Of a DNA stretch of 64,000 nucleotides, positions 14,497 through 55,561 are shown one piece after another. Numbering within the stretch: the stretch's first letter is position 1; each line of letters begins with the position of its first letter. The stretch spans positions 1 through 64,000 of the forward strand of contig QIFC01000077.1 of the NCBI GenBank assembly GCA_003228685.1. Reading direction: 5' to 3'. The position numbers and the translations under genes were made by a program. The notes beneath the pieces were generated by a model. The model had not been told where the DNA came from, searched no databases, and was given only the letters and a program-made list of their open reading frames with translations. The stretch is from Chloroflexota bacterium. GTDB taxonomy: Bacteria; Chloroflexota; Dehalococcoidia; DSTF01; RBG-16-68-14.

Positions 14497-15483
14497 ATGG
14501 CCGTAGACGCTCGGGCAGTCTCTAGCACACCGGCCGCCACCCGGCCACGCCGCGAACGAGACCAAGAACTCCTCGTTTGGCCAGACCTCGTATTCATCGA
14601 GTTCATCGCTGCGACGGTCTTCCTGCTCCTGTTCGTCATCCTCTCAACGCTTCTGGACGCGCCGCTGCTGAACCAGGCCAACCTAGACATCACGCCTAAC
14701 CCGTCTAAGGCCGCCTGGTATCTAGTTGCCCTTCAGGAGCTACTGCTGCACATGCACCCGGCGCTTGGTGGCGTGATCGCGCCGACGTTCGCGCTGATTA
14801 TCATTGGAGCCTTCCCCTATGTCGACCGTTCCAATGAAGGCCAAGGCGCTTGGTTCTCCACGGAAAACGCCATAAAGATTACGCTCTTCTCGGCCGCCTT
14901 CGCTTCGATTCTTACAGTCGCGCTTATCCTGTACGACCAGGGACGCCACGTTAATGTCGTGACGAGCATCGCCCAGGAGTTTGACAAAGACTGGCGGTGG
15001 CCGGGCAAGCTTTCGGCGTTCCAGAATGTGCGGGCTATCCAGACGGGTTGGGAGTGGAGCATCCCAGTGCCGGAATCGGCCCAGCTCGGCCCAGGGGAAC
15101 ATGACGGCGAGCTGAACTGGCCGGATGACTTCACGCACGTCCCCATGCCGTTTAACGGCACCAGCGGCCCGGATTGGATGCGCTGGGGCCCGCCGTCGTT
15201 CTTACCGGGCTGGCTGCAGGCGCTGTACTGGTATGATCTCAACATGAATACGCCGGCGTTTGTCGTCGAGCTGTTCATCCCGGTCGCCGTCATGGTGACA
15301 TTGCCCGTAATCATGATCCTCATGCTGATGAGGCTCGGCTGGGTGAAGAATATACGCGACGGATCGATCGGGATCTTCACCGGAATGATGACCGTCTATT
15401 TCATCCTCACGATTATCGGTGCTGGGTTTCGTGGGGCAGGGCAGGACCTCGTCTTGCCTTGGGACGTCCCGCACATCGACTAG
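14497..15483 (+). CDS. petD: Subunit IV-like C-terminal cytochrome b, enlarged
   Basis: 328 residues, twice the usual length of subunit IV. The first part has the helix following LVWPDLVFIEFIAATV. A loop of roughly 100 residues, rich in Trp and Pro, precedes two further helices (FVVELFIPVAVMVTLPVIM and GMMTVYFILTIIG). The PEWY-like motif of the quinol site is not obvious; a candidate region is KAAWYLVALQELLLHMHP, comparable to PEWYFLFAYEIL in other cytochromes. It starts 4 nt after petB. The long loop is probably extracytoplasmic and could dock the Rieske protein or cytochrome c domain encoded downstream. Confidence 0.8.
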   Translation: MAVDARAVSSTPAATRPRRERDQELLVWPDLVFIEFIAATVFLLLFVILSTLLDAPLLNQANLDITPNPSKAAWYLVALQELLLHMHPALGGVIAPTFALIIIGAFPYVDRSNEGQGAWFSTENAIKITLFSAAFASILTVALILYDQGRHVNVVTSIAQEFDKDWRWPGKLSAFQNVRAIQTGWEWSIPVPESAQLGPGEHDGELNWPDDFTHVPMPFNGTSGPDWMRWGPPSFLPGWLQALYWYDLNMNTPAFVVELFIPVAVMVTLPVIMILMLMRLGWVKNIRDGSIGIFTGMMTVYFILTIIGAGFRGAGQDLVLPWDVPHID

Positions 15484-31003: not shown

Positions 31004-31813
31004 ATGGCAGACGTCCTGCTGTACGAGAAGCAAGGCCAGATCGTTCACATCACGCTGAACCGGCCGGAAAAGCGCAACGCCATCGACCCGGAGATGATGG
31101 TCAAGCTGGGCCAGGCCTGGATCGACTTCGAGAAGGACGACGGCCTCCGCGTCGCGATCGTCACCGGCGCCGGCGACAAGTCGTTCTGCGCCGGGGCTGA
31201 CTTGGCACGATTGATCCCGCTCATGACCGGCGCCCGTCAGCCCGAGGACGAGTGGGACAATCGCCTCCGCAGTGAGCCGAACCTGGCCAGGGCGGCGTTA
31301 CTGCGCGACTTCCCCCTCTACAAGCCTGTGATCAGCGCGATCAACGGCTACTGTCTGGCCGCGGGCACGGAGTTGGTGCAGGGGACGGACATTCGCATCG
31401 CCTCGGAGAACGCCACGATTGGTCTGACGGAGGTCAAGCGCGGAATCGCTCCCGCCGGCGGCGGTATCGCCCGCATGCCGCGCCAGGTGCCGTTCGCGAA
31501 AGCGATGGAGATCCTGCTCGTCGGCGACGCCATCCCTGCGGAGGAGGCGCGCCTGATCGGCCTGGTAAACTACGTGGTGCCGCAATCGGAGCTGATGGCG
31601 AAGGCCGAGGAGTTTGCGGCGAAGATCGCCGAGAACGGTCCCCTCGCCGTCCGCAAGATCAAGGAGGCCGTCATTCGCGGCCTGGGCCTGCCCATGGAAG
31701 ACGCTTACAAGATCGAAGGGCAGTCCGTCGCGCAGGTGATGGCCAGCGAAGACGCCCGCGAAGGCCCACTGGCCTTCATGGAGGGCCGCCCACCGAACTT
31801 CAAAGGTCGGTAG
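31004..31813 (+). CDS. Enoyl-CoA hydratase/isomerase family protein
   Basis: 269 residues, crotonase fold. The N-terminus IVHITLNRPEKRNAIDPEM, the oxyanion segment FCAGADLARL and the second one AINGYCLAAGTELV are characteristic. A Glu at LTEVKRG is in the position of the first catalytic glutamate. It would hydrate 2-enoyl-CoA or isomerise a related acyl-CoA. AGGAGAG precedes the ATG. Its last 70 nt recur twice downstream, beyond each of the two ATC-hydrolase-like genes. Confidence 0.9.
   Translation: MADVLLYEKQGQIVHITLNRPEKRNAIDPEMMVKLGQAWIDFEKDDGLRVAIVTGAGDKSFCAGADLARLIPLMTGARQPEDEWDNRLRSEPNLARAALLRDFPLYKPVISAINGYCLAAGTELVQGTDIRIASENATIGLTEVKRGIAPAGGGIARMPRQVPFAKAMEILLVGDAIPAEEARLIGLVNYVVPQSELMAKAEEFAAKIAENGPLAVRKIKEAVIRGLGLPMEDAYKIEGQSVAQVMASEDAREGPLAFMEGRPPNFKGR
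31746..31813 (+). repeat. Enoyl-CoA hydratase tail, copy 1 (native)
   Basis: The native 3' end of the hydratase gene. Copies at 32583-32650 and 33417-33489 encode the same residues (FMEGRPPNFKGR and its variants). Confidence 0.85.
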
Positions 31814-31842
31814 GGTATGATTGTGCCGGAGGGAGATACACG

Positions 31843-32562
31843 ATGAGCGACAACCAGGATTCATCCAAGCACCGGCGACGTGGCCTAATGCTCGCGCTGG
31901 CTGCGGCGCTGCTGGGCGGCCTTGTCGTCGCGCGTCGAGTCGCCGCGCCGCAGCGCATGCCGTTTGCCGGGCTCTGGCAGCGCGCCCTCGCGGAGAAACG
32001 TGGAACTGCCGAGGCACAGCGCCTGATTGCCGCCGCGGAGGACCGCTACCGCGAGTTGTACGACGGGCGGCCGCGCCCCGCTAGCCGAGTGCTCCGCTTT
32101 CACGTTGAGCGCATCACGCTGCCCGGCTTGGCGCTGTACCAGACCTTGTTGGAAGCGGGCGACGACCAAGAGACGGCTCTAACCATGATGGACGCGCTCT
32201 GCGCCGAGACGGTGACCGGCTTCAGAAGGCTGATGGCGTTCTTGAGCCACCTGCCTAGAACGTTCGCTATGTTACGCCGAATAGGGCCATGGGTCGTGCG
32301 ATTCGGATTTCCCGCGCAAGGCTGGGAGATGGAACTCCTGGAGAGTAGCGAAGACTGCGCCGGGTTCAACATGCACCGCTGCTTCTACCTGGACACCCTC
32401 ACATCGTATGGCGCGCCGGAGTTGACGCGGTCCATCTGCGGCGGCGATGACGTGGTGTTCCCGGCGCTGGCACCCGCGATCATCTTTGAGCGCACCACCA
32501 CCATGGGCCGGGGTGGCGACCGCTGCGATTTCCGCTGGCGTCCCGGCGCGCCTCAGCGATAG
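31843..32562 (+). CDS. ATC-hydrolase-like protein, copy A
   Basis: 239 residues. A Lys/Arg-containing start and one hydrophobic helix (LMLALAAALLGGLVVARR) suggest a membrane anchor. The conserved C-terminal part has NMHRCFYLDTLTSYG, LTRSICGGDDVV and an ending with CDFRW, the order of Cys, Asp and Cys residues seen in L-2-amino-thiazoline-4-carboxylate hydrolase-type proteins. A related function in cysteine-type metabolism is possible but unproven. It starts 29 nt after the enoyl-CoA hydratase, with ribosome site GGAGGG. It is the first of two tandem copies and is closely similar to the copy at 32680. Confidence 0.75.
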   Translation: MSDNQDSSKHRRRGLMLALAAALLGGLVVARRVAAPQRMPFAGLWQRALAEKRGTAEAQRLIAAAEDRYRELYDGRPRPASRVLRFHVERITLPGLALYQTLLEAGDDQETALTMMDALCAETVTGFRRLMAFLSHLPRTFAMLRRIGPWVVRFGFPAQGWEMELLESSEDCAGFNMHRCFYLDTLTSYGAPELTRSICGGDDVVFPALAPAIIFERTTTMGRGGDRCDFRWRPGAPQR

Positions 32563-32582
32563 CCAGTCGTGCGCGAGGCCTA

Positions 32583-32650
32583 GCGAAGACGCCCGCGAAG
32601 GCCCACTCGCCTTCATGGAGCGCCGCCCACCGGACTTCAAAGGTCGGTAG
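32583..32650 (+). repeat. Enoyl-CoA hydratase tail, copy 2
   Basis: Near-perfect copy of the hydratase 3' end (31746-31813) at a distance of 837 nt, including its TAG stop and the 28-nt leader before the next ATG. Confidence 0.85.
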
Positions 32651-32679
32651 GGTATGATCGTGCCGGAGGGAGATACACG

Positions 32680-33417
32680 ATGAGCGATAACCAGGATTCA
32701 TCCAAGCACCGGCGTAATGGACGGCGCGGCCTTGCGCTTGCATTAACTGCGGCGCTGCTGGCCGGACTTGTCGTCGTGCGCCGCGTCGCCACGCCGCAGC
32801 GCATGCCGTTTGCCGGGCTTTGGCGTCGCGCCCTGGCGGAGAAGCGCGGAGTCGCGGAGGCAGAGCGTTTGATCGCCGCTGCGGAGGCCCGCTACCGCGA
32901 GCTATATGCGGACCGGCCGCGCCCGGCTAGGAGAGCCCTTCGCATTCATCTCCAACGCAGCATGCTGCCCGGCTTGGCGCTCTACCAGGCCTTGCTCAAG
33001 GAGGGCGACGAGCGAGAGCGGGCGTTGGCCGAGATGGAACACCTGATGGCCGTGACCGTGGATCCTCTCCGGCGGCTCATGTCGCTCCTGGCTCGGCTTC
33101 CTGATCCGTTCGCGCTCTTCCGCCGGGTCGAACCGTGGGTGGTGAGGCTCGGGTTCCCGCCGGAGGGTTGGGAGATGGAGCCGGTGGAGGAGAGCGAGGA
33201 CCGCATCGCGTTCAACGTGCACCGCTGCTTCTACGTGGACACCTTCACCTCGTACGGCGCGCCGGAACTGACGCGGGTCTTCTGCGGCGGCGACGACGTG
33301 ATGTTCCTGGCGCTGGAGCCGTCGATCACGTGGGAGCGCCCGATGACGCTGGGCCGCGGCGACGACCGCTGCGAATTCCGCTGGAGCCGCGGCGCGCCCG
33401 AGCGACGAAAGGCGTAG
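32680..33417 (+). CDS. ATC-hydrolase-like protein, copy B
   Basis: 245 residues, with the same layout as copy A: an anchor helix after RRGLALALTAALL, then a conserved domain with FNVHRCFYVDTFTSYG, CGGDDVMF and CEFRW. Start and leader are almost identical to those of copy A, and identity drops inside the gene, so the duplication is not recent or the copies have been under different selection. The 3' end runs directly into the third tail copy. Function as for copy A. Confidence 0.75.
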   Translation: MSDNQDSSKHRRNGRRGLALALTAALLAGLVVVRRVATPQRMPFAGLWRRALAEKRGVAEAERLIAAAEARYRELYADRPRPARRALRIHLQRSMLPGLALYQALLKEGDERERALAEMEHLMAVTVDPLRRLMSLLARLPDPFALFRRVEPWVVRLGFPPEGWEMEPVEESEDRIAFNVHRCFYVDTFTSYGAPELTRVFCGGDDVMFLALEPSITWERPMTLGRGDDRCEFRWSRGAPERRKA

Positions 33418-33489
33418 CGAGGACCTCCGCAAAGGGCCATGCGCCTTCATGGAGCGGCGTTACCCGGACTTCATGGGCTGGTTAGGGCG
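33417..33489 (+). repeat. Enoyl-CoA hydratase tail, copy 3 (degenerate)
   Basis: About 70 nt recognisably derived from the hydratase 3' end (CTTCATGGAG, CGGACTTCAT, GGTTAGGG landmarks) at 834 nt from copy 2. More diverged than copy 2, and the gene that would follow is missing. Confidence 0.75.
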
Positions 33490-33719
33490 GTTCTTAGTCT
33501 ATGGCGCCCGTGTATCTCGCGGTCGCTAGTGCTAGCTCCCACGTCACCCTGAGCGACGCGAAGGGTCTAGCCTGTCGCCGAGACGCCAGATTCTTCGCTT
33601 CGCTCAGAATGACACTCGCTAGGCGTCACCCCACTTCCCAGCCCTCTCCCTCTCGTGAAAGAAACCGTGCCCCGCCGGTCTCCCAGTGGGCGCGGTTAGT
33701 CATTGGCCAGAGGAGCAGC
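33490..33719. other. Intergenic region with repeat-type sequence
   Basis: About 230 nt with no gene. It contains an ATTCTTCGCTTCGCTCAGAA palindromic stretch and a CCCTCTCCCTCTCG stretch, both of which resemble dispersed intergenic repeats. A related CCTCTCC stretch is at 40560. Confidence 0.4.
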
Positions 33720-33785
33720 TTACTCCACGGTGTAAGCGTCCTTGCCAGGTTGCGCGGCTGGTTCACGCCGCAGCGTGTTGTAGCG
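33720..33785 (-). repeat. Degenerate copy of the glmS 3' end
   Basis: Aligns with the end of glmS (34782 onward): a 17-nt identical core CCAGGTTGCGCGGCTGG with matching flanks and stop-side TTACTCCAC. In the right frame it encodes CGVNQPRNLARTLT, compared with CDVDQPRNLAKTVT in GlmS. Small indels break the frame near the end. Confidence 0.75.
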
Positions 33786-34724
33786 TTAGGTACCATCGTT
33801 CGGGGCTCTCGCAAGCTGTACTAGGTCTCGCACAGCATCGACTACCAACGCAGGCTGGTCGATCTGGACGAAGTGACCGCTCCTATCGGCGATGACATGC
33901 TTGCTATGGGACGAGAGGCCCGCCAGCTCACGCTGTGCCTCCATCCAGACCTTTCCCATCTGCTCGCCGGACTGGGTTCCGCTGTCCCAGGTTGCCGGAG
34001 AAGAGAGTACGGCCAGTGGGAGGTCTCCGATCTGGCGTTGCGCTGTTCGTAGCTGCGCTGTGCTCTCTGCTATCGACTCAGCCTCGTCGAGCGCTGCGCC
34101 GTACGCCTTCGCCCGGACGCCTAGGGCGAGCGCCATCCGTTGCTCAGCAGGAGGTAGATCGGTTGCGGCGAGCGGCCTCCTGAGCAATCGCGGGATGCCG
34201 AAGGGCGCCAGCATCCGCCCGAATCGCAACAGTCGCCGTCCCGCCTTGGTCGCATCGTGAAACTCCGGCGGGAAGCGCGAGAATACATCCTCATGCACCG
34301 CGTCAACTAGCACTATCCCAACGACTTCGTCAGGGTATCTGCTGGCGAACAGGCGCACGTTGAGCCCCCCGAGGGAATGCCCCACCAGCACGTATGGGGC
34401 CTCGATTCCGGCGTTGTGCAGCAGAGTGTGCAGCTCCTCGACGATTCGCAGACTGGTGCGCGGTTTTGGGCCGGAATCGCTCCATCCGAAACCGGCCCGG
34501 TCGTACGCGCAGACGCGGGTGAACCTAGCAATCTCGGGCTGGACGCAGCTCCAGTCGAGAGAAGAACCGCCTGCGCCTGCTTCCATCACCACTATTGGTC
34601 TGCCCTCGCCTGCGCAGGAGATGTGCAGCCGGTGGCCACCTACGTCTACGCGGGTGCCTGGGGGAGGGTATCTTGCGTTGTCGATGGCGGTCGCGATGGC
34701 CTGGTAGAGCACCCCGGCCAACAC
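33786..34724 (-). CDS. Alpha/beta hydrolase, N-terminally membrane-anchored
   Basis: 312 residues from the GTG at 34724. GHSLGG is the nucleophile elbow, EAGAGGSSLDW the oxyanion-side motif, and the DRSGHFVQID segment supplies the catalytic His. In-frame codons upstream add a hydrophobic helix (WIAVGFGLVVLIVLAGVLY), which is usual in this subfamily. The likely true start is then 34769, where AAGGAGAG stands 5 nt before an ATA codon, either a rare start or a miscalled ATG. It follows glmS on the minus strand after 12 nt. It is flanked by the native glmS tail and its degenerate copy, so the gene seems to have been inserted. Confidence 0.85.
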   Translation of the reverse strand: MLAGVLYQAIATAIDNARYPPPGTRVDVGGHRLHISCAGEGRPIVVMEAGAGGSSLDWSCVQPEIARFTRVCAYDRAGFGWSDSGPKPRTSLRIVEELHTLLHNAGIEAPYVLVGHSLGGLNVRLFASRYPDEVVGIVLVDAVHEDVFSRFPPEFHDATKAGRRLLRFGRMLAPFGIPRLLRRPLAATDLPPAEQRMALALGVRAKAYGAALDEAESIAESTAQLRTAQRQIGDLPLAVLSSPATWDSGTQSGEQMGKVWMEAQRELAGLSSHSKHVIADRSGHFVQIDQPALVVDAVRDLVQLARAPNDGT

Positions 34725-34781
34725 GATAAGAACGACCAGGCCAAAGCCAACCGCGATCCAGGTTAGTATTTCGCTCTCTCC

Positions 34782-36626
34782 TTACTCCACCGTCACCGTC
34801 TTCGCCAGGTTGCGCGGCTGGTCCACGTCACAGCCGCGCCAGACCGCGATGTAGTAGGCGAGGAGTTGCAGCGGCAGCACGGTGAGCAGCGGCAGCAGGA
34901 GCGGCGTTGTCTCCGGCACTTCGATGACGTGGTCAGCCTTGCGCGCCATCTCCGCGTCGCCCTCGTTCACGAGGGCGATCACCGTGCCGTCGCGCGCCCG
35001 CACCTGCTCGATATTCGAGCGCATCTTGTCGCGCATGCCGTCCCGCACCGCGATCGCAATAGTCGGCATCTGCTCGTCGATCAGCGCGATCGGGCCGTGC
35101 TTCATTTCGCCGGCGGGGTAGCCCTCGGCGTGGATGTAGCTCAGCTCCTTCAGCTTCAGCGCGCCCTCCATCGCCACTGGGTGCTGGAGCCCGCGGGCGA
35201 GGAAGAGGAAGTGGTGGTAGCTCTGGAACTTGTGGGCCAGCTTTTCAATTGCGGGCGCATCGTGGAGCACGCGCCCCATCAGGTCAGGCAGGTGGGCCAG
35301 CGGCTCCGTCAGCTCCTCCAGCTTGGCCTCATCGAGACGTCCGCGCACACGGCCGATGTGGCAGGCGAGCAGGTAGAGCGCGACCATGGAGGCCGTCAGC
35401 GTCTTGCTGCTCGCGACGCTGATCTCCGGCCCGCAGCGTGTATACACCGTCGCGTCCGCGACGCGCGTGGACTGAGCACCCGGCGTATTGCAGATAGTGA
35501 TCTGCGGGGAGCCGGCCCGTTGCGCCTCCTGCATCGCTTCCAACGTATCAACCGTCTCGCCGGACTGTGCAACGCTAACGACGAGCGTCTTCGGCCCGAC
35601 GATTGCGCTGCGGTAACGGAACTCCGACGCGTAGTCGACCTCCGCCGGTATGCCGGCCAGCTCCTCGAGGTAGCGCCGGCCCACCATTGCGGCGTGCTGG
35701 CTCGTGCCCATCGCGACGAGCACGATGCGGTCGATCGAGCGGAGCGTGTCGTCTGCGATGTCGAAGTCGTCGAGTTGTACGCTCGACGGATCGAACAGTA
35801 CGCGGCCTCGGAAGGTATCAAGCACGCACTGTGGCTGTTCGACGATCTCCTTCAGCATGAAGTGCTTGTAGGCGCCCTTCGCCGCGGCAACAGGATCGAG
35901 TGGGACCGTCTGCGGCTCCTTGGCTATTGGGTTGCCTTCGGCGTCCCAGTAGCGCACGGACTCGCCTGTCACCTCGGCCAGCTCACCGTCACCGAGGAAG
36001 ACAACACGGCGCGTTTCCGGCAGCAGCGCAGGCAAGTCGCTCGCGATGAAGTGCTCGTTCTCGCCGTACCCGATCACGACGCCGCCCGCGTTGCCGACGC
36101 GAGCCGCCACGAGCCGGTCAGGCTCGTTCTTGCTGAACGCGACAATCGCGTGCGAGCCATCGATGCGAGCGATCGTGTTTCGTAACGCCTCGTGTAGCTC
36201 ATCTCCGTTATTGAGGTTCGTTTCAATGAGGTGGGCCAGCACCTCGGTGTCGGTCTCAGAGGTGAGGCCATGGCCCTCTGCCATCAGCTCCTGACCGAGG
36301 TCCAGGTAGTTCTCGACGATGCCGTTGTGGACCACGGCGACCTCCTCGCCACAGTCCTGTTGCGGGTGCGCGTTCTCGTCCGAGGGCTTCCCGTGTGTGG
36401 CCCAGCGCGTGTGCGCCAGACCGATCGTGCCGGGAGGATGAACCCCCTCCAGGCTGGCCGTCAGTTTCGCGATCTTGCCTTGCTGCTTCTTGAGGTGTAG
36501 CCGGCCGTCGCTGTCCAGAACAGCGATACCGGCGCTGTCGTATCCGCGGTACTCAAGGCGCTGGAGGCCCTCCACCAGTAGAGGACTGGCCTCCCGTGTG
36601 CCCGCGTACGCAATAATGCCGCACAT
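34782..36626 (-). CDS. glmS: Glutamine:fructose-6-phosphate amidotransferase
   Basis: Makes glucosamine-6-phosphate, the first step towards UDP-GlcNAc and peptidoglycan. 614 residues. The mature enzyme begins MCGIIAYAG with Cys2 as nucleophile; the glutaminase domain continues with GLAHTRWATHG and VVHNGIVENY, and the two SIS isomerase domains follow, with MGTSQHAAMVGRRYLEE and a C-terminal NLAKTVTVE. The start at 36626 is fixed by Cys2 and by GAAGGGAG upstream, so the longer upstream frame is rejected. It is controlled by a ribozyme in the leader. Confidence 0.97.
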   Translation of the reverse strand: MCGIIAYAGTREASPLLVEGLQRLEYRGYDSAGIAVLDSDGRLHLKKQQGKIAKLTASLEGVHPPGTIGLAHTRWATHGKPSDENAHPQQDCGEEVAVVHNGIVENYLDLGQELMAEGHGLTSETDTEVLAHLIETNLNNGDELHEALRNTIARIDGSHAIVAFSKNEPDRLVAARVGNAGGVVIGYGENEHFIASDLPALLPETRRVVFLGDGELAEVTGESVRYWDAEGNPIAKEPQTVPLDPVAAAKGAYKHFMLKEIVEQPQCVLDTFRGRVLFDPSSVQLDDFDIADDTLRSIDRIVLVAMGTSQHAAMVGRRYLEELAGIPAEVDYASEFRYRSAIVGPKTLVVSVAQSGETVDTLEAMQEAQRAGSPQITICNTPGAQSTRVADATVYTRCGPEISVASSKTLTASMVALYLLACHIGRVRGRLDEAKLEELTEPLAHLPDLMGRVLHDAPAIEKLAHKFQSYHHFLFLARGLQHPVAMEGALKLKELSYIHAEGYPAGEMKHGPIALIDEQMPTIAIAVRDGMRDKMRSNIEQVRARDGTVIALVNEGDAEMARKADHVIEVPETTPLLLPLLTVLPLQLLAYYIAVWRGCDVDQPRNLAKTVTVE

Positions 36627-40365: not shown

Positions 40366-40407
40366 GGCTGACCTCCGGTCAGCTTAGCAGTTACGAAGTA
40401 ACTGCGG
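40366..40407. repeat. Double-hairpin palindromic element, copy 3 (at a start codon)
   Basis: GCTGACC-TCC-GGTCAGC followed by GCAGTTAC-GAA-GTAACTGC. On the minus strand the first hairpin carries GGAGG, 5 nt before the ATG at 40365, so it supplies the ribosome site. Confidence 0.75.
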
Positions 40408-40679: not shown

Positions 40680-43271
40680 ATGACTACGCGCGTGGTAGGC
40701 CTCCGCTGCGAGCATCTGGTGGACCCGATCGGTCTCGGGGTCGCGAGCCTGCGGCTCTCGTGGAGGACCGAGACCGAAATCGGGGGTTGGAAGCAGTCCG
40801 CGTATCAGATCGAGGTCCGCGAACGGCTCGACGGCGCCGTCCTGTGGGACTCCGGGCGGGTCGCGTCCGGCGAGTCCGTCCTGATCCCATATGAGGGACC
40901 GCCTCTGACATCACGCCAGCAGTGCGAGTGGCGCGTCCGGGTCTGGGGCAACGATGGCGGCGAGAGCGACTGGAACGATCCGGCGCGCTTCGAGATCGGG
41001 TTGCTCGATCCGGACGACTGGTCCGCGCAATTCATCACTCCCGACTGGGAGGAGGACGCGGCAGAATCGCCGCCCTGCCCGTATCTGCGCAGGGAGTTCG
41101 AGATCGGCGGCGAGGTCGCAGGCGCGCGATTGTTCGCGACCGCCATGGGTGTGTACGAGGCGGAGATCAACGGCGTGCGCGTTGGCGACCACGTCCTCGC
41201 GCCCGGCTGGACGAGTTACCATCATCGACTGCGGTACCAGACTTATGACGTCACATCGCTGCTGCGGAGCGGCCCCAACGCCATCGGGGCGATCATCGGC
41301 GACGGCTGGGCGCGAGGCTACTTCGGCATTCCCGCGAAGCGCCAGCGCTACACGGAGAAGGTCGCGCTGCTTGCTCAGCTCGAGGTTACGCTGACGAACG
41401 GCGACAAGGTAATCGTGGCGACCGACGAGTCATGGCGGGCGACGACGGGACCGATCGTCGCTTCTGATCTGTACAACGGTGATTCGTACGACGCCCGGCT
41501 TGAGCTGCCCGGCTGGTCAGAAGCGAGATACGACGGCAGTGCGTGGGCCGGCGTCCGGCTCTACGAAGGCGACGTTGGCGCGCTCGTGGCCGCGTCTGGC
41601 CCACCCGTGCGACGAATCGAGGAGGTGCGGCCTGTCGAGGTCACGACTTCGCCCTCTGGCAAGACAGTCGTGGACTTTGGGCAGAACTTGGCCGGGCGTG
41701 TGAGGCTGCGCGTTTCGGGCGCCGCAGGAACGGTGATCACGATCCGGCACGCGGAAGTGCTGGAGGACGGCGAAATCTTCACCCGGGCGCTGAACTCGGC
41801 GCGGGCGACCGATAGCTACACACTGAAGGGTGGGGGCGTCGAGGAGTACGAGCCTCGGTTCACGTTCCACGGGTTCCGCTACGCGGAGGTGAGCGGCTGG
41901 CCGGGCACGCTGACGCCCGACGACCTCGTCGCGGTGGTCTGTCACTCGGACCTGGAACGGACGGGCTGGTTCGAGTGCTCCGACCCCGACCTGAACCGGC
42001 TGCACGAGAACATCGTCTGGTCGCAGCGAGGCAACTTCTTGGACGTGCCGACCGACTGCCCGCAGCGCTCCGAGCGGCTGGGCTGGACGGGCGATATCCA
42101 GACGTTTGCCCCGACAGCGAGCCTGCTCTACGACGTCGCCGGGTTCCTGACGTCGTGGCTCGCGGACCTCGCGGCCGAGCAACTGCCCGATGGCGGCGTC
42201 CCTTGGGTCGTGCCGGACGTGCTCGCAGAGGACATGCCCCGCGCGTCGTCGTCGGCCGGCTGGAGTGATGCGGCCGTCATCGTGCCGTGGGTCCTCTATC
42301 GCTACTATGGCGACCGCGGGATCCTCGCCACGCAGTACGAGAGCATGAAGGGGTGGGTTGAGCATGTGGTCCGGCGCGCCGGAGACGATCTGATCTGGGA
42401 CAACGGCTTCCAGTTCGGCGATTGGCTCGACCCGGCGGCGCCACCGAACGAGCCGGCCAATGCGCGCGCGGACCGCTACTTTGTCTGCACTGCCTACTTC
42501 GCGCACTCGACGCAGCTGCTTGCGCAAGCGGCGGCCGTGCTCGACAAGGGCGAAGACGCCGACCATTACGCAGCACTCGCCGCCAGAACTAGGGAGGCGT
42601 TCCGCGAGCGGTACGCTCCAGACGGCCTGCGTGGTTCCACAGCGCAGACGGAGCTGGTGCTGGCCTTGGCGTTCGACCTGCTGCCTGAGGGGCAGCGAGG
42701 CGGTGCCGCGGCACGGCTCGCGCACCTTGTCGCGGAGGAAGGCGGGCACCTCGGCACGGGCTTCCTGGGAACGCCGGACTTGTGCGCTGCTCTCACCGGC
42801 CATGGGTTTGTAGATGTCGCCTACGAACTGCTGCTGCAACGCACCTGCCCTTCATGGCTCTACCCGGTCACGCAGGGCGCAACGACGATCTGGGAACGAT
42901 GGGACGCGATCCAGCCGGATGGCTCGATCAATCCGGGTGAGATGCTCTCATTCAACCATTACGCGTTCGGCGCGATCGGTGCGTGGCTCTACGAGAGCGT
43001 TGCGGGTATCAGGCTGGATGAAGAGCAGCCGGGCTGGCGACGTTTCCGGATCCAGCCACGTCCCGGCGGTGGCCTAACGTACGTGCGAGCCAGGATCCTC
43101 ACTCGCTACGGCCCCATTGAGAGCGCATGGGAACTCGATCATGGCCGGTTCTCGATGTCTGTAGAGGTCCCCCCGAACACGTCCGCGCGTGTGCTGCTGC
43201 CCGGCGATGGTGGCGGTCCAATCGAAGTTGGCTCCGGCCGTCACTCCTGGGAGTTCGCGGCACCCGGCTGA
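40680..43271 (+). CDS. Alpha-L-rhamnosidase, glycoside hydrolase family 78
   Basis: 863 residues with the layout of bacterial GH78 enzymes. An N-terminal Fn3-like part (YQIEVRERLDGAVLWDSG, WRVRVWG) and a galactose-binding-like part (GWTSYHHRLRYQTYDVTS) come before the (alpha/alpha)6 barrel. DVPTDCPQRSERLGWTGD contains the acidic residues of the catalytic centre, and IWERWD supplies another conserved Glu. The C-terminal beta domain begins near residue 780. It removes terminal rhamnose from glycans or flavonoid glycosides. No signal peptide is visible, so it may act inside the cell on imported oligosaccharides. The stop codon lies inside a hairpin of a palindromic element. Confidence 0.92.
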   Translation: MTTRVVGLRCEHLVDPIGLGVASLRLSWRTETEIGGWKQSAYQIEVRERLDGAVLWDSGRVASGESVLIPYEGPPLTSRQQCEWRVRVWGNDGGESDWNDPARFEIGLLDPDDWSAQFITPDWEEDAAESPPCPYLRREFEIGGEVAGARLFATAMGVYEAEINGVRVGDHVLAPGWTSYHHRLRYQTYDVTSLLRSGPNAIGAIIGDGWARGYFGIPAKRQRYTEKVALLAQLEVTLTNGDKVIVATDESWRATTGPIVASDLYNGDSYDARLELPGWSEARYDGSAWAGVRLYEGDVGALVAASGPPVRRIEEVRPVEVTTSPSGKTVVDFGQNLAGRVRLRVSGAAGTVITIRHAEVLEDGEIFTRALNSARATDSYTLKGGGVEEYEPRFTFHGFRYAEVSGWPGTLTPDDLVAVVCHSDLERTGWFECSDPDLNRLHENIVWSQRGNFLDVPTDCPQRSERLGWTGDIQTFAPTASLLYDVAGFLTSWLADLAAEQLPDGGVPWVVPDVLAEDMPRASSSAGWSDAAVIVPWVLYRYYGDRGILATQYESMKGWVEHVVRRAGDDLIWDNGFQFGDWLDPAAPPNEPANARADRYFVCTAYFAHSTQLLAQAAAVLDKGEDADHYAALAARTREAFRERYAPDGLRGSTAQTELVLALAFDLLPEGQRGGAAARLAHLVAEEGGHLGTGFLGTPDLCAALTGHGFVDVAYELLLQRTCPSWLYPVTQGATTIWERWDAIQPDGSINPGEMLSFNHYAFGAIGAWLYESVAGIRLDEEQPGWRRFRIQPRPGGGLTYVRARILTRYGPIESAWELDHGRFSMSVEVPPNTSARVLLPGDGGGPIEVGSGRHSWEFAAPG

Positions 43272-43307
43272 CCTTCGGTCAGCTTCGAGTTTCTGCGCAA
43301 CTCGCGG
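43266..43307. repeat. Double-hairpin palindromic element, copy 4 (at a stop codon)
   Basis: First arm GCTGACC-TTC-GGTCAGC is perfect; its left arm contains the TGA stop of the rhamnosidase. The second hairpin (CGAGTT and AACTCG) is less exact. Confidence 0.65.
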
Positions 43308-45477: not shown

Positions 45478-47859
45478 CTATTCGTCCCGCTGCCGGCGCT
45501 GCGCCATGTAGCTCATCAGTGCAACCACACCCGCGCCGGTGGCGCCGCCGAAGAGGGCCCATGGCCAGAGCGGGCCGTCGTTTGTAGACGATGGCGGTTC
45601 GGGTGTGCGCAGCGAGTGCCGGCGGATGACGGGCGGTGGCATCGGCGCGCGGCTTGGTTGCGGCCGCGTGACCGAGAGCGGTTCGCTAACGGCAGGCGAC
45701 GACGCTCGCGAGCTGGAAGCCGCGCGAGGCGCCGCGGACTGCTCGATGCCTTGCCGCGCGGGCGTGAAGGCCGGTTCAGCCACCCGCCGGAACGACGCGT
45801 CGTCGATGTAGATCAGCGCGCTCGTCCCGTCGCGCGGCCGCATCATGATGCGCAGCTTCGCCGAGCGCGCGCTTGGCGGCGCCTGCACGGGGCCTGTCGA
45901 GAGCAGGCGATACGCAGGCTCCGGCGTCGTGAGCAGCGCAGTGGAATCGACGCTCGCGAGGGCGCTGCCGCTTCCGTCGCCGCTCGCGTACCAGGAGACG
46001 CGCAGGAACGCCGACTTGACCCAGGCGTGGTCGTGGTAGACGAAGCTGTCGAACTGGTACCAGTTCGTCGCGTCCACGGCGACCGTTTGGAAGACCCACT
46101 TCGTGCTGCTACTGGAACTGTAGAACGCGCCCGCCGCGCTGCCGGTTCGCGCCGGCGAGAGCGCCTGCGTCAGCAGCCCGCCGTACGTCCGCCAGCCGGC
46201 CAGCGCCCCGTCGGACGCCTCCTCGAAGCCAGCGTTCGCCAGCGCACGAGGCGCTTCTAGGTCTGGCTCAGCGATCGTGGCGACAGCAGCCGGTGTGAGC
46301 GTGGCGGGCGGCGTCGCCGTCGCCGCCGTTGGGGGCCCTGACGTGGCAGTGCTGGCGGGGGTGATCGACGGTCGTAGTGGAGTGCCCGTCGCGGCGATTG
46401 GTGTGGCAGCGGCTGGCGTCGCCTGCGTGATCGCGGTCGCCGTGGCCGGTGGCGGCGCGGGCGCGGCAGCCTTCGCGAACGAGACGTCGTCGATGTAGAT
46501 CACGGCGTTCGTCTCGTCTTGCGGCCGCATTAGTATGCGCAGTCTCGCCGAATGGGCACCCGGCGGCGCCATCACGGCGCCCGTGCTCAGCGGCCGAAAC
46601 TCCGGCCGCGGAGCCGAGAGCGCTGCCTTGGAGTCGATCGTGGAGAGCGCGCTGCCGCTGCCGTCCGCGCTGGAGTACCAGGAGATGCGCAGGAACGCCG
46701 ACTCGACCCAGGGATCGTCGTGGTAGACGAAGGCGTCGAACTGGTACCAGTTCGCGGGCTCGACGGCCACGGTCTGGTACGCCCACTTCGTGCTGGCGGT
46801 CGAACTGAAGAACGCGCCGGACCAAGAGCCGCTACGGGCAGGCGTTCCCGCCTGCATGAGCAGCCCGCCCACCGTTTGCCAGGTGCCGGGCCGGCCATCG
46901 TCGCCCTCCTCGAAGCCGCCGTTTCTGAACTCGAGGTCGAGGGCAACCGGGCCGACGACTTCCGGCGTTGGTGTTCGGGTGCTGGTCGGGTCCGCAACGG
47001 GTGGTGCGGTCGCGGTCGGCAGCGCCTGGCGTGTCGCCGTTGGGGAGGGCGTTGGTGGGTCTGTTGGCGATGGCGACGGCGTAGCGGTCGACGTGGATGT
47101 GCTGCTGGGCGTGGGTGTTCGAGTGAGCGTTGCCGCCGGCGTGCCTGTGCTTGTACTGGAGGTGGTTGGCGTGGCTGAGGGCGTCAGCGTGCCCGTTGGC
47201 ACTGACGTGGGCGTTGGCGTGGGCGTAGAGGATGAACTCGGTGTGGGCGTGGGAGTCCGTGTAGGTGAGGGCGATGGCGTCGCGCACGGTTCCGACACAG
47301 AACCCTGCTTCAGGATGAGGTCGTCGACGAACGCGGTGGAGCCGATCGGACCCCTCACGAGCACACGAAAGTTCCCCTGGACCGCACCGCACGGCGCGTG
47401 GACCGACCCTTGCCAGTTCGACGGAGGCCCGTGCGATGGGAGGTTCAGCGCGGAGACAAGAGACTCGTCGTTTTCGTCGAACAGTTCGATCTGCAGGCGG
47501 AACCATTCGACATCGCCGGTCTGGGAAACGTACTCGCCGCCGAACGTGTAGCTAAAGCCGGGCGCGATCGTCACGTCACGTCGGAAGCTGGCCGTCAACG
47601 GGGCCGAGCCCGTTCCATCCAGGGGCGCGACCGTGATCGCGACAGTATTGCCGTCCTCGACCGCAGCAATGTCGAAGGTCGCGTTCTGGGCAGTCCAGCC
47701 TTCAAGGGCGTCCTCGCCTTCGAAGTCCCAGACCGGGAGAGAGTCGTCTGCGCCTAGCGGGACGTGGAGGGCGGCGAGAAGCAGCGCTGCCGCCAACACC
47801 GCCAGGGATATCGATCCCCATGCCACGCGCACGGTCATGCTCGCCATCGCCGTCGCCAT
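45478..47859 (-). CDS. Large secreted cell-surface protein with two carbohydrate-binding-like modules
   Basis: 793 residues. A signal peptide (residues about 10-37) and a C-terminal anchor (PWALFGGATGAGVVALMSY, followed by basic QRRQRDE) tie it to the membrane with the body outside. A first module (residues about 40-190) precedes a Ser/Thr/Pro-rich linker of about 100 residues. Two further modules of about 155 residues are near-duplicates; each starts with NGGFEE or NAGFEE, contains WYQFDxFVYHD and ends with IYIDDxSF. Such beta-sandwich modules are typical of carbohydrate binding. No catalytic site is seen. It probably attaches cells to a glycan, matching the rhamnosidase and glycosyl enzymes near it. 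An ATG at 47844 or 47838 is an alternative start. Confidence 0.75.
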   Translation of the reverse strand: MATAMASMTVRVAWGSISLAVLAAALLLAALHVPLGADDSLPVWDFEGEDALEGWTAQNATFDIAAVEDGNTVAITVAPLDGTGSAPLTASFRRDVTIAPGFSYTFGGEYVSQTGDVEWFRLQIELFDENDESLVSALNLPSHGPPSNWQGSVHAPCGAVQGNFRVLVRGPIGSTAFVDDLILKQGSVSEPCATPSPSPTRTPTPTPSSSSTPTPTPTSVPTGTLTPSATPTTSSTSTGTPAATLTRTPTPSSTSTSTATPSPSPTDPPTPSPTATRQALPTATAPPVADPTSTRTPTPEVVGPVALDLEFRNGGFEEGDDGRPGTWQTVGGLLMQAGTPARSGSWSGAFFSSTASTKWAYQTVAVEPANWYQFDAFVYHDDPWVESAFLRISWYSSADGSGSALSTIDSKAALSAPRPEFRPLSTGAVMAPPGAHSARLRILMRPQDETNAVIYIDDVSFAKAAAPAPPPATATAITQATPAAATPIAATGTPLRPSITPASTATSGPPTAATATPPATLTPAAVATIAEPDLEAPRALANAGFEEASDGALAGWRTYGGLLTQALSPARTGSAAGAFYSSSSSTKWVFQTVAVDATNWYQFDSFVYHDHAWVKSAFLRVSWYASGDGSGSALASVDSTALLTTPEPAYRLLSTGPVQAPPSARSAKLRIMMRPRDGTSALIYIDDASFRRVAEPAFTPARQGIEQSAAPRAASSSRASSPAVSEPLSVTRPQPSRAPMPPPVIRRHSLRTPEPPSSTNDGPLWPWALFGGATGAGVVALMSYMAQRRQRDE

Positions 47860-50693: not shown

Positions 50694-51163
50694 TGAACGT
50701 GCTCGTAGGCTTCAAAATCCGCGATCCAGACAACGTAGTCGAGTTCTTCCCGGACTCGCCGATACAGCTTGCGATCAGCCGTAATGAATGGGATGCCCAG
50801 GACCTCGGCAACGACCAAGTAGAGCGCGTCGTAGACGTGACAGTTCAGCTGTGTAGCCCGCGCGTATGCGGATTGAATGAGTTCAGGCAAACTGTCCTCG
50901 GTGCCGAGTGTGCGCAGTTGCAAGTTGAAGAAGTGCCCAATCGCGAGCTGGGCATCGTGCAGCGCGAGCCGTCTTCGACGGACCGCTCGATGAATCGCGC
51001 TAGGTATTTCGTAGAGGATGAACTGCGGGGCTACTAGCTCCAGTCGGCCGTCGGTATGCCGCCGAACAATCGTTTTGGCTAGGTCCGTGAACTGTTCGTC
51101 CTCGTCGACGATGTAAAGCTGCGCTAGCACGGAGGCATCGATGACCCATGAGTCGCCGTACAT
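50690..51163 (-). CDS. PIN-domain toxin (VapC-like)
   Basis: 157 residues. The four acidic residues of PIN ribonucleases are present: Asp in WVIDASV (residue 9), Glu in LYEIPSA, Asp in VYDALYL and Asp in FITADRK. VapC toxins cleave tRNA or rRNA. The preceding 64-residue gene, 3 nt upstream, has the size of a VapB antitoxin. This gives a VapBC-like pair with a PHP gene coupled behind it. Confidence 0.88.
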   Translation of the reverse strand: MYGDSWVIDASVLAQLYIVDEDEQFTDLAKTIVRRHTDGRLELVAPQFILYEIPSAIHRAVRRRRLALHDAQLAIGHFFNLQLRTLGTEDSLPELIQSAYARATQLNCHVYDALYLVVAEVLGIPFITADRKLYRRVREELDYVVWIADFEAYEHVQ

Positions 51164-51166
51164 TCA

Positions 51167-51361
51167 TTACCGCTGATCGCGCATGGAACGGATGATGTCG
51201 ACGATTCTTAGCGGCCGGATGTCCAGGCGCTGTCGAACCCGTAGGGCGCCACGCAATGCGTTCTTGCGAGCTCTCAACTCGGCACTCGTAGGGGGCCTGC
51301 GTGACTCCAAGAACTCCTGGGCCCAAAGAGGGAACTCTTCCCTGGCTGGTTTAGTCACCAT
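51167..51361 (-). CDS. Putative antitoxin of the PIN-domain pair
   Basis: 64 residues, basic, with WAQEFLESRRPPTSAELRAR and a C-terminal RIVDIIRSMRDQR segment. The second part resembles the C-terminal toxin-binding tail of VapB/Phd-type antitoxins; a DNA-binding fold at the N-terminus is not clear. It is inferred mainly from its position 3 nt before the PIN gene and its size. It is the first gene of the pair in the transcript. Confidence 0.65.
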   Translation of the reverse strand: MVTKPAREEFPLWAQEFLESRRPPTSAELRARKNALRGALRVRQRLDIRPLRIVDIIRSMRDQR

Positions 51362-51386
51362 GCGATCTCTCCGTGTTCATTGTACG

Positions 51387-51641
51387 CTACTCCTCCTCCA
51401 GGAGCGGCGCTTCTTCGGGTTCGGTGTCTTCGGTTGGCTGCGTGAAGGATTCCCGGAGCTTGGTGATGCGCTGCTCGGCGCCGTCCAGGATGCCCTGGCA
51501 CTGCTTGGCCAGTGTCATCCCTTCTTCGTAGAGCGCGATCGATTGCTCCAGAGAGAGACCCCCCTTCTCAAGCTTCTCTACCGTCTCCTCCAGCTTCTTG
51601 TACAGCTCCTCGAATGGAGGTTCGCTCTTCTTGGCCGTCAC
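51387..51641 (-). CDS. xseB: Exodeoxyribonuclease VII small subunit
   Basis: 84 residues, mostly helical. PFEELYKKLEETVEKLEKGGLSLEQSIALYEEGMTLAKQC is the signature segment. It binds the XseA large subunit and helps degrade single-stranded DNA from either end to oligonucleotides. It starts 19 nt after the xseA stop, with AGGAGGCG as ribosome site. Confidence 0.95.
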   Translation of the reverse strand: MTAKKSEPPFEELYKKLEETVEKLEKGGLSLEQSIALYEEGMTLAKQCQGILDGAEQRITKLRESFTQPTEDTEPEEAPLLEEE

Positions 51642-51659
51642 GTCATCACGCCTCCTGTA

Positions 51660-52913
51660 CTACGCGTCCAGATGGAAGAGTGGCGCCTGCTCCTGGGCTA
51701 TCTTCGTACGACGCCGTCGTTTCTGGTCCGGCACGGGGCTCGCGGTATCGACGCGCACCGGGAAGTCGCCGTCGCGGACGCGCACGCTCAGGCGCTCGCC
51801 GACCTTCGTGTCGTCGACGGTGTCGACGACGTGGCCGTCGCGCTGGACCAGCGCATAGCCACGCTGGAGCGTCGCGTATGGGTCGAGCGAGCGCAGCGCG
51901 AGCCGGAAGCCGTGCAGCCCTTTCTGGAAGCCGCGCACGCTTTCGTCCACAGTCGCCTGCATCGTTCTCGTCAGGTCGTCGGTGCGCTGGCGCTCTCTGT
52001 TGACGTCGGGCGTCGCGCGCTCGATTGTGGTAACCGCTTGGCGGACGCCGGCATGTCCGCTCTCGACGTGGCGTTGCACTTCTGAGAGCAGCGTGCCTGC
52101 CGCGATGCTCAGGCGCACCGAGACCTCAGTGCGGTCCGGCGCCACTAGCTCCGCCGCCGCCGATGGCGTCGGCGCGCGCAGGTCCGCGACGAAGTCGGCG
52201 ATCGTGGTGTCGGTCTCGTGGCCGACGCCGGAGACGGTCGGGACGGTACTGCCGAAGATGGCCCGGGCGACCGGCTCTTCGTTGAAGGCCCATAAGTCCT
52301 CCAGAGAGCCGCCTCCGCGCGCGACGATGATCACGTCGATGTCCGGCGTCTGATTGAGTGTGGTTATTGCATTGACGATGCGAGGCGCGGCGTCCGGCCC
52401 CTGCACGGCCGTCGGCGCGAGGACGATCTCTGCTTGCGGCCAGCGCCGCTCCAGGACGTGGCAGACGTCGTGGAAGACGGCGCCCGCCTCGGACGTGGCG
52501 ACGCCGATGCGCTGGGGGAAGCGCGGCAGCGGTCGCTTGCGTCCTTCGTCGAAGAGGCCCTCTTCCTGGAGCCGCGCCTTCAGCCGCTCGAACTCGGCCT
52601 GGAGCGCGCCGACGCCCTCCGGCTGCACGAAATCGACGATGAACTGCAGGTCGCCGCGCACTTCGTAGAAGGAGACGCGGCCGTGCGCGACGACGGCGTC
52701 TCCGTCCTTGAAGTCGAAGCCCTTGTTGTCGCTCTTGAAGAGCACGCAGGTCAGGGCGGCGTCGGCCTCCTTGAGGCTGAAGTAGACGTGGCCGGACGGG
52801 TAGCTGCGGAAGTTCGAGACCTCGCCCGCGATCCAGAGGTCGCTAAGGAAGAGGTCGCTTTCGACCAGCTCTCGCAGGTGGGTCGCGACCTGGCGGACTG
52901 CGTAGACCTGCAT
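51660..52913 (-). CDS. xseA: Exodeoxyribonuclease VII large subunit
   Basis: 417 residues. The N-terminal OB-fold reads YAVRQVATHLRELVE and YPSGHVYFSLKEADAALTCVLF; the catalytic domain has RIGVATSEAGAVFHDV, RGGGSLEDLWAFNEEPVARAI and SGVGHETDTTIADFVADLRAPTPSAAAE, all family hallmarks. The C-terminal part is long-helical. It processively removes bases from ssDNA in repair. The start at 52913 avoids an upstream, non-homologous frame. Confidence 0.96.
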   Translation of the reverse strand: MQVYAVRQVATHLRELVESDLFLSDLWIAGEVSNFRSYPSGHVYFSLKEADAALTCVLFKSDNKGFDFKDGDAVVAHGRVSFYEVRGDLQFIVDFVQPEGVGALQAEFERLKARLQEEGLFDEGRKRPLPRFPQRIGVATSEAGAVFHDVCHVLERRWPQAEIVLAPTAVQGPDAAPRIVNAITTLNQTPDIDVIIVARGGGSLEDLWAFNEEPVARAIFGSTVPTVSGVGHETDTTIADFVADLRAPTPSAAAELVAPDRTEVSVRLSIAAGTLLSEVQRHVESGHAGVRQAVTTIERATPDVNRERQRTDDLTRTMQATVDESVRGFQKGLHGFRLALRSLDPYATLQRGYALVQRDGHVVDTVDDTKVGERLSVRVRDGDFPVRVDTASPVPDQKRRRRTKIAQEQAPLFHLDA

Positions 52914-53030
52914 CGGCTCCAGTATCGCGCTAGGAGTGTTGGGGGTGCAAGTGGAGGCGAGCTGAGGACGGCTCCCGGCACACTGCCAAGACCAGGAAAG
53001 CATAATTACACAGCAAGTGTGCAAATGGTA

Positions 53031-53059
53031 TTGACAAGATTCAAGATAGCAGCTATCCT
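53031..53059 (+). promoter_or_regulatory. Promoter and operator of the HigBA operon
   Basis: TTGACA (53031-53036), a 17-nt spacer and TATCCT (53054-53059). The palindrome GATAGC-A-GCTATC at 53045-53057 overlaps the -10 box and is a likely operator for the antitoxin's own repression. Confidence 0.75.
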
Positions 53060-53072
53060 TTCTGTGCATGGC

Positions 53073-53375
53073 ATGGATGTCCAATACGGTGATGAAAATC
53101 TCGAGCGATTGGTGTTCGACCCTCGATTTGGAGGGAAGCTACCGCCGGAAGTCGTTACGCGGTACCGAAGAGTTGTCGCTTTCATCAGACGGGCAGCGGA
53201 CGAACGAGACCTGCGGGCATGGCCAGCGCTGCATTTTGAGAAGCTCAAGGTAATGATGGCCGGACAGTACTCGATGAGACTTAACAGACAGTGGAGAGTA
53301 CTGGCGGACATAGAAGGGACGGCTGGGAACAAGAGGGTGGTCATTCGAAAGATAGAGAACCACTACAGCGACTGA
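53073..53375 (+). CDS. HigB/RelE-like toxin
   Basis: 100 residues from the ATG at 53073. Segments RRVVAFIRRAADERDLRAWPALHFEKLK, SMRLNRQWRVLADI and KRVVIRKIENHY are the core of HigB-like mRNA interferases, where the basic RLNxxWR and Arg/Lys residues handle ribosome-bound mRNA. The longer upstream frame overlaps xseA. Its stop overlaps the start of the antitoxin gene (TGATG), the normal HigBA order with toxin first. Confidence 0.9.
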   Translation: MDVQYGDENLERLVFDPRFGGKLPPEVVTRYRRVVAFIRRAADERDLRAWPALHFEKLKVMMAGQYSMRLNRQWRVLADIEGTAGNKRVVIRKIENHYSD

Positions 53376-54544
53376 TGGCAGAGGTGATGGGTATGCCTGA
53401 ACAATTGGCCGCGGAAGAGTTCCCACCAGGGGATTACCTCAAGGAGTTCATCGACGGTCGCGGCTGGACCCAGGAGGACTTGGCGGCGATCCTAGGTCGG
53501 CCCCTACAACTCGTGAATGAGGTCGTGCTCGGCAAGCGGCGCATCACGCCAGAGACCGCGCGAGGATTCGCTGAAGCGTTCGGAACCAGCGCGGAGTTGT
53601 GGTTGAACCTTGATTCTGCGTGGCAGCTCTATAAGTCCAGAGATGCAGTAGCTGATCCATCGATCCCGCTGCGTGCCCGGATCTATTCAAAAGGACCGAT
53701 CAAGGAGATGGTCAAGCGTGGCTGGATCGAGTACTCAAGCAATCCTGAGGTCCTTGAACAGAGAGTGCTGGACTTCTATAACATCAAGGACCTGAACGAT
53801 ACTCCGCCAGTATTACCTGTTGCGGCACGCAAATCTGACTCATACGAGTCACTCACGCCATCTCAGCAATCCTGGATGTGCCGGGCCCTGCAGTTGGGGA
53901 AACTGGTTTCCGTCTCCGCCAAGTTCGACTCCAAGAAGGTAGATAAGCTCCTGGCCACGTTACGCGCCTACCTTCGCTATGCCGAAGAGGTCCGCCACGT
54001 ACCGGAGGTTCTTGCGGACGCGGGAGTTCGCCTCGTGGTGGTTGAGCATCTGGCAAAGACGAAAATCGACGGGGCTTGTCTCTGGCTGGACGAAACGTCT
54101 CCAGTAGTCGCACTCTCCCTGCGCTATGACAGAATCGACTATATCTGGTTCACACTCATGCACGAGTTGGCACATGCTGCGCGGGGTGATGGGCTGAAAA
54201 ATGGCTTTCCTGCATTGGATGTTTGCCTTGTGGGCGAGCAGCTAGTAGCAGAGGAGGAGAAGCCGGAGTATGAGATTCGAGCCGACCAGTTCGCCGGACA
54301 GGCGTTAGTGCCTCAAGACAAGCTCGACGACTTCATTGCCCGAAAGCAACCGTTGTTCTCAGAGAGGGATGTCCTAGCGTTCGCCAGCTTACACGAGGTG
54401 CATCCTGGCATCGTGGCCGGCCAGTTGCAGCATCGGGAGGGGAAGTACACCAAGTTCAGGCGTTTGCTGGAGAAGATGCGAGGCCAGCTAACCGCCACGG
54501 CACTTACTGATGGTTGGGGCCACGTGGTCCCGGCTGGGACATAG
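53375..54544 (+). CDS. HigA-type antitoxin fused to an ImmA/IrrE-like domain
   Basis: 389 residues. The N-terminal XRE/HigA domain contains LKEFIDGRGWTQEDLAAILGR and TPETARGFAEAFGTSAELWLNL. Residues about 230-330 form an ImmA/IrrE-like metalloprotease domain with YIWFTLMHELAHAARGDG (HExxH) and a Glu-containing EKPEYEIRADQFAG segment. In relatives of this type the antitoxin part binds the toxin and the operator, and the protease-like part may sense a signal or degrade a partner. The start overlaps the toxin stop. The rest of the operon continues 10 nt later. Confidence 0.85.
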   Translation: MAEVMGMPEQLAAEEFPPGDYLKEFIDGRGWTQEDLAAILGRPLQLVNEVVLGKRRITPETARGFAEAFGTSAELWLNLDSAWQLYKSRDAVADPSIPLRARIYSKGPIKEMVKRGWIEYSSNPEVLEQRVLDFYNIKDLNDTPPVLPVAARKSDSYESLTPSQQSWMCRALQLGKLVSVSAKFDSKKVDKLLATLRAYLRYAEEVRHVPEVLADAGVRLVVVEHLAKTKIDGACLWLDETSPVVALSLRYDRIDYIWFTLMHELAHAARGDGLKNGFPALDVCLVGEQLVAEEEKPEYEIRADQFAGQALVPQDKLDDFIARKQPLFSERDVLAFASLHEVHPGIVAGQLQHREGKYTKFRRLLEKMRGQLTATALTDGWGHVVPAGT

Positions 54545-54554
54545 GAGGACTTGG

Positions 54555-54830
54555 ATGGCAACGTACAACGAACAACTGCAGCAGATTGTCACGAAGTACA
54601 TCGAAGTTGGTGAAGATTGGCCGGCAACGTCTCGGCAGATCGCTGCTTGGGGAGTACGCGAAAGGCTTTGGCAGCCCCACCCGTCTTCGGTTGTCAGCCA
54701 GTGTGCGGAAGCGCTGTCGAACGCGAGGCGAGACGAACACATTGTCGATCCACAAGGTCGCACTGTACGAGCGAAACATGCAGCACGGATCAAGCAAGAG
54801 GTTCTCTGGGCTGATATTCGGACTGCGTAG
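54555..54830 (+). CDS. Unknown protein of the HigBA operon, first half of a gene split by TAG
   Basis: 91 residues with AGGAGG 6 nt before the ATG. The sequence is helical and charged (QIAAWGVRERLWQPHPSS, RTVRAKHAARIKQEVLWADIRTA) with no known domain. It ends at TAG (54828-54830), and the same frame continues as a further 60-residue segment after CGT CAG CAC. From memory, longer homologues seem to have an uninterrupted WADIRTAP-REHM-type junction, which would make this a nonsense mutation; that recollection could not be checked. It follows the HigA-type gene by 10 nt. Confidence 0.6.
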   Translation: MATYNEQLQQIVTKYIEVGEDWPATSRQIAAWGVRERLWQPHPSSVVSQCAEALSNARRDEHIVDPQGRTVRAKHAARIKQEVLWADIRTA

Positions 54831-54839
54831 CGTCAGCAC

Positions 54840-55450: not shown

Positions 55451-55561
55451 GGCGGGCTATGCTCACGAGCGCCTACTCCGCGCCCGCGGGATCTCTCACA
55501 TGTCCTGACACACTACAGGAAGGGTGCAAGTAAGCTTGACAAATTGGCCAACTGAGTTACA

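Follow-up and report, generated by a model that had tools for sequence, protein, structure and literature searches.

Islands that tyrosine integrases insert at the 3' ends of genes restore the end of the gene and leave a copy of it at the far side of the element. A layout reminiscent of this was analysed in 64,000 nucleotides of DNA from a Chloroflexota bacterium (bases 1-64000 of contig QIFC01000077.1, here C10, of the draft genome G000, which comprises 3.53 Mb in 128 contigs); the whole of this stretch is referred to below as the window. Within it, the end of a resident gene recurs as a second copy on the other side of one or two additional genes, as is seen behind a gene for an enoyl-CoA hydratase/isomerase (ECH) and behind glmS; such copies, detached from the gene, are called orphan tails here. 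The restored gene end and the far-side copy are features that these loci have in common with integrase islands, but no tyrosine integrase is encoded on the contig, the inserts are single genes, the targets are many and unrelated, and there is no common core. The first-pass annotation of the window held that no described system matches this pattern, which was too strong a statement, as displacement at Rhs loci and in the type VI secretion system (T6SS) has the same proposed logic of an anchor, an addition and a displaced 3' end.

In Rhs C-terminal displacement, a new 3' part and a downstream gene are added by homologous recombination, for which circular intermediates have been proposed, and the old 3' end is moved downstream as a silent fragment, with the newest end proximal (Jackson et al. 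2009, PMC2935791). Anchoring in an upstream gene, addition, a displaced 3' end and the proximal position of the newest copy are all shared with the loci described here. However, the displaced Rhs tips are unlike the new ones, include a piece of the core that varies in length and belong to one gene family, whereas the genes here are ordinary metabolic ones, whose displaced tail is the same conserved sequence and survives as stubs of 30-105 nt; the displaced end is not different in kind from the new end, old and new tails being homologous and 72-95% identical. Effector-immunity displacement in the T6SS of Vibrio cholerae proceeds by additive insertion, which is attributed to homology-facilitated illegitimate recombination (Kirchberger et al. 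2017, PMC5361080). It resembles the present loci in having a conserved upstream anchor, in doing without an integrase and in displacing resident 3' genes one after another, but the genes displaced there are whole, functional immunity genes that are thought to be kept by selection, whereas here the displaced units are dead tails, and the genes that they surround are single and varied. Minimal mobile elements are swapped through homologous recombination of the flanks (Saunders & Snyder 2002, in the definition as given in PMC3082526), and the conserved ECH and glmS genes similarly enclose differing whole-gene content in G000, in its congener G002 and in the family member G005, although a duplicated gene tail is not part of the definition as given there. 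The observation is real and recurrent in G000 and its close relatives, and probably needs no new mobile machine; we file the displaced tails as displacement by anchored additive recombination, with part of the cases owed to tandem duplication.

The ECH gene (31004-31813, forward strand; Pfam ECH_1, E=1.1e-60), whose protein has a counterpart of 87% identity in the syntenic place in G002, adjoining glmS, ends in a tail that is in place and coding (T1, 31741-31813). It is followed on the same strand by a gene of the ATC_hydrolase family (X1, 31843-32562, 239 aa; PF14196, E=1.6e-20), an orphan copy of the tail (T2, 32577-32650), a second gene of the same family (X2, 32680-33417, 245 aa, 70% protein identity to X1) and the oldest orphan copy (T3, about 33410-33488), so that the order is ECH ending in T1, X1, T2, X2, T3. 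T2 is 95% identical to T1 with one indel, and T3 shows 72-77% identity; their local alignment scores are 62 and 20.5, respectively, compared with maxima of 15-16.5 among 300 shuffles for each copy. The X1|T2 and X2|T3 junctions have AGGCNTAGCGA in common. T3 is older than T2, and the newest tail lies nearest the gene, which is the order expected from sequential displacement. A diversity-generating retroelement was considered as a source of the tail copies and rejected by eye, the differences between T1 and T2 not being adenine-specific (reverse transcriptase genes were not searched for).

The split between the two X genes is much older than the tails that join them. Between X1 and X2, dS is 0.69 and dN/dS is 0.28, a ratio that makes both genes look selected. 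Identity between T1 and T2, counted with the leader as far as the first codons of X, is 93-95%, compared with about 55-90% across X, and divergence is thus not even along the T-X1 and T-X2 units, as tandem duplication of such a unit would have it. Because a dS of 0.69 stands against tails that are 93-95% identical, the split of X1 and X2 predates the split of the tails, and because T2 is non-coding, selection on the ECH protein cannot have preserved it. Either homologous tail DNA brought in a diverged X, or conversion of the tail region followed later. Of 39 relatives, 38 lack a match to X1 and the other has one of 28% identity, and a search of the GTDB genome collection for close relatives of X2 found none. 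The ATC_hydrolase family is scattered in the class, with members in 52 of 197 genomes, and is absent from the nearest relatives searched, a distribution that makes X look like an accessory gene.

The second locus lies on the opposite strand. The glmS gene (34782-36626, reverse strand; Pfam SIS and GATase), which is syntenic in G002, G005 and the genome G003, has its intact tail at 34782-34834 and is separated by an alpha/beta-hydrolase gene (33786-34724, reverse strand; Pfam Abhydrolase_1, E=7.8e-20) from an orphan copy of its last 53 nt (33720-33774, reverse strand, 82% identity; alignment score 28, with the same shuffle maxima), which is frame-shifted and has conserved GlmS C-terminal residues changed. 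Since T3 and the glmS orphan have lost frame or conserved residues, the orphan copies resemble dead DNA. Approximately 230 nt of intergenic sequence separate T3 from the worn glmS tail, and the two are oriented towards each other, as the former ends of two convergent genes would be. The interval between ECH and glmS varies among relatives: it measures 540 bp in G002 and 1053 bp in G005, with another open reading frame (ORF) in each, and in G003, where ECH is absent, it measures 76 bp. Tn7 inserts at glmS past the stop codon with a 5-bp duplication; it would leave no 53-nt copy and was therefore rejected as a source of the second tail (Tn7 proteins were not searched for).

Genome samples were scanned for further cases by comparing each gene, as predicted by a self-written gene caller, with its own 4-kb flanks. 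The samples, each no more than about a quarter of a genome, comprised 1.26 Mb of the family (881 kb of G000, 196 kb of G002 and 185 kb of G005), 400 kb of the order-level relative G011, 400 kb of the distant class member G030, and 300 kb of Escherichia coli K-12. At thresholds chosen during inspection, 13 genes in the family sample have an orphan tail copy downstream (7 in G000, 2 in G002 and 4 in G005, those within a single island of G005 contig C54 not being independent), a count that already excludes one whole-gene tandem of a GIY-YIG-like gene (C4 25495) that had been flagged as a tail copy; two genes were found in the G011 sample and none in those of G030 and E. coli. Most of the orphan fragments found in non-coding DNA are tails, and they lie downstream of their genes. 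Inverted tail matches were not found at threshold, none of 657 genes matched by its tail the flanks of other genes, and in the family a single gene, at C4 16490, has an orphan head upstream, this gene also bearing an orphan tail. Thus the recurrence of the layout, which the first-pass annotation had proposed to measure by a scan of this kind, was borne out: tail copies clearly exceed what the inverted, head, inner and mismatched controls gave, and the shuffles, the inverted strand and the mismatched flanks rule out chance as a cause.

The stubs are 32-103 nt long, most of them ending at the stop codon; at older loci the homology ends at the stop codon or a few bases from it. Spacing between the copies is less than 130 nt at 4 of the 13 genes and 283-3596 nt at the other 9. 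Two of the short-spaced cases, C16 (101 nt) and L087 (75 nt, three copies), are plain short tandem repeats, and in those on C19 and C24 a hairpin repeat lies between the copies. L087 (G005 C8, 1340-1635) holds the last 71 nt of its gene three times in tandem and may be described as a gene-tail minisatellite. Over the loci as a whole, what lies between the copies varies from nothing, or a hairpin repeat, up to several genes.

Comparison with relatives indicates which copy is the old one. At the gene on C4 (16490-17392), the tail of the counterpart in the congener G001 leads straight into the sequence that lies behind the orphan in G000 (G000 17727-19986 matches G001 L187 353-2636 at 88%), and the intervening DNA leaves no trace in G001 between the gene and this downstream flank. 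Because the G001 tail runs into the flank of the orphan, the orphan is the displaced resident end: the resident 3' end lies downstream of the new gene and is continuous with the old flanking DNA. What was gained is 335 bp and a gene end. The orphan head of the same gene (14510-14695, 186 nt, 92%) lies 2 kb upstream, and three genes and the full allele are present between the two scars, so the insert sits within the remains of the resident gene. At C4 and at C13, orphan and intact tails differ, at a few sites, in their affinity to relatives; at C13 the orphan has GACAGACGGGA in common with G002 and the intact tail has GACCGGCGGGA in common with G001. On these few sites, the orphan and intact tails at both loci look like two alleles.

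Loss of sequence from such copies can be followed elsewhere. On G005 C54, an island of approximately 6 kb with nested direct repeats (50960-57048, L034/L035) precedes the gene for pyruvate phosphate dikinase, and the longest repeat includes the head of that gene; the repeats measure 814 nt at 94% identity, 191 nt at 92%, 188 nt at 85% and 103 nt at 78%. An orphan on G011 C28 is split into two pieces by an internal gap. This shrinkage with divergence and the broken orphan are consistent with erosion of copies that were once longer.

We therefore favour, with a probability of about 0.55, the addition of the extra genes by anchored additive recombination with DNA of relatives, followed by decay of the displaced tail. 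The incoming DNA, from related bacteria, would carry its own allele of the 3' part of the resident gene and then a new gene; homologous pairing would occur inside the resident gene, which would stay whole with the donor tail, and the other side would be closed by imprecise joining (homology-facilitated illegitimate recombination) or by a single crossover involving a molecule that was circular or incomplete. The resident's own tail would end up downstream of the new gene and decay there as non-coding DNA, long repeats presumably being lost through RecA excision or erosion until stubs of 30-105 nt remain. At ECH, a repeat of this process with a diverged X would yield T-X1-T-X2-T, the newest tail being nearest the gene. 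Genes for ComEC, DprA and Ku are present in the genome, which makes DNA uptake and joining possible and proves neither. When one-sided homology was tested in E. coli, most products of single crossovers with truncated homology were partial duplications, in which 109-950 bp from the end of the target gene were repeated (PMC3240628); the displaced tails are the same kind of product. A search of the literature for work on repeat length and deletion rate gave no result.

Several observations weigh against recombination of this kind as a full account. The third locus has the opposite order to the first two: the metalloprotease-like gene (93-1952, reverse strand; HExxH-type motif HELGHALGH in the translation), with its tail at 94-149, has a 56-nt orphan tail of 91% identity upstream of the intact gene (2656-2711, reverse strand; alignment score 43.5, shuffle maxima 15-16.5), beyond a 201-aa gene (ORF at 1975-2580, reverse strand). 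An orphan in this position is not a product of insertion behind the gene, so that of the three tail-insert-tail loci first listed, those at ECH and glmS stand, and the third is real but differently built. At C11, the gene adjoining the resident is also its neighbour in the genome G004, and the insert there is therefore not new. For neither ECH nor glmS was an empty site found, G001 lacking a close ECH and its glmS contig lacking the 3' end, and no drop in identity to G002 that would reveal a foreign 3' end was visible near the 3' ends of the two genes. Stubs at long-spaced loci are never longer than about 105 nt, which requires a step of survivorship that is unproven. The weakest point is the excess of tails over heads, 13 to 1, though recombination alone predicts equal frequencies; selection against promoter displacement or against truncated proteins may contribute to this bias, or gene ends may be targeted. 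The latter would imply a pathway of insertion without an integrase, or an enzyme acting in trans, that adds small pieces of DNA to the ends of many unrelated genes in this family, regenerates those ends and leaves tails of 30-105 nt, and we regard this as unlikely.

Local tandem duplication, from inside the tail to beyond the next gene, followed by loss of one copy, would also give tail-gene-tail or tail-gene-tail-gene. It explains part of the cases: the short-spaced loci C16 and L087, and C19, C20 and C10 78187 with a hairpin inside the unit, are plain tandems, and it accounts for the upstream orphan of the metalloprotease-like gene and for the conserved neighbour at C11. The paralogous X1 and X2 with their homologous X|tail junctions, and the G005 C54 island, which resembles nested duplication with reciprocal loss, point in the same direction. 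As an explanation of the loci in general it is nevertheless doubtful, for it shares the prediction that heads should be as frequent as tails and adds that tail lengths should spread over the whole gene, it requires later gene conversion at ECH, where X1 and X2 are far older than the split of T1 and T2, and it finds no intervening DNA behind the C4 gene in G001, where the flank follows directly. The strong bias to exact gene ends, the narrow range of stub lengths, the constant restoration of the gene and the confinement of the excess to one lineage would suit a dedicated site-specific recombinase or transposase that recognises the 3' ends of genes as attachment sites and moves small cassettes in trans, much as the first-pass annotation suggested. 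Yet the tyrosine integrase family PF00589 has six matches in the genome and none on contig C10 (serine and DDE enzymes were not searched for), every affected gene has its own tail, no common breakpoint motif was evident when sampled junctions were compared side by side by eye, and the inserts, with no common gene, end sequence or size, are heterogeneous, one locus moreover bearing the 186-nt head scar. With the neighbour at C11 conserved as well, mobile cassettes of this sort are quite improbable. Integron gene cassettes would be recognised by attC sites and IntI; the tails here are coding gene ends. Staggered double-strand breaks with fill-in and Ku-type joining to captured DNA, the resulting long target-site duplications being tolerated only at gene ends, would make use of the Ku gene and would explain the variable inserts and the missing motifs. 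The duplication should then usually extend beyond the stop codon into intergenic DNA, whereas older loci end at or near the stop, and C4 shows two alleles rather than one duplicated site; this explanation is the most improbable.

If additive recombination is what produced them, displaced tails could be read as scars of genes acquired by addition, which record the place and order of single-gene additions, and would serve in lineages without obvious mobile elements. Should the bias of tails over heads and the restriction to one lineage hold in full genomes, gene gain outside islands in uncultured bacteria would become directly testable, and displacement arrays would be extended from toxin loci to housekeeping genes.

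Other repeated sequences were noted in the same samples. A dispersed hairpin repeat (e.g. GCAGAAGCGAAGCTTCTGCCAAGCTGACCGAAGGTCAGCC) is found behind genes and in several places between a gene tail and its copy (window 2734-2775, 40367-40385 and 43267-43285; G000 C19 2450-2515 and C10 78105-78187; G002 C24 51985-52056); the first of these, at about 2734-2775, adjoins the orphan metalloprotease tail. A dockerin-like C-terminal end (DGVIDLANDILGVILQFN..C) is common to many large proteins, the tails of which recur among neighbours and as orphans (G000 C19 279-8196, C12 5035-12782 and C10 78187-80352; G002 C24 45595-56006). On G000 C4 (26113-26885, L063) a small GIY-YIG-like gene has undergone recent tandem duplication, with the same dispersed repeat between the copies. 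Within the window, one long gene contains a 300-nt repeat of 77% identity (45790-46776), and two small paralogous genes of 75% identity lie side by side at 60733-61325.

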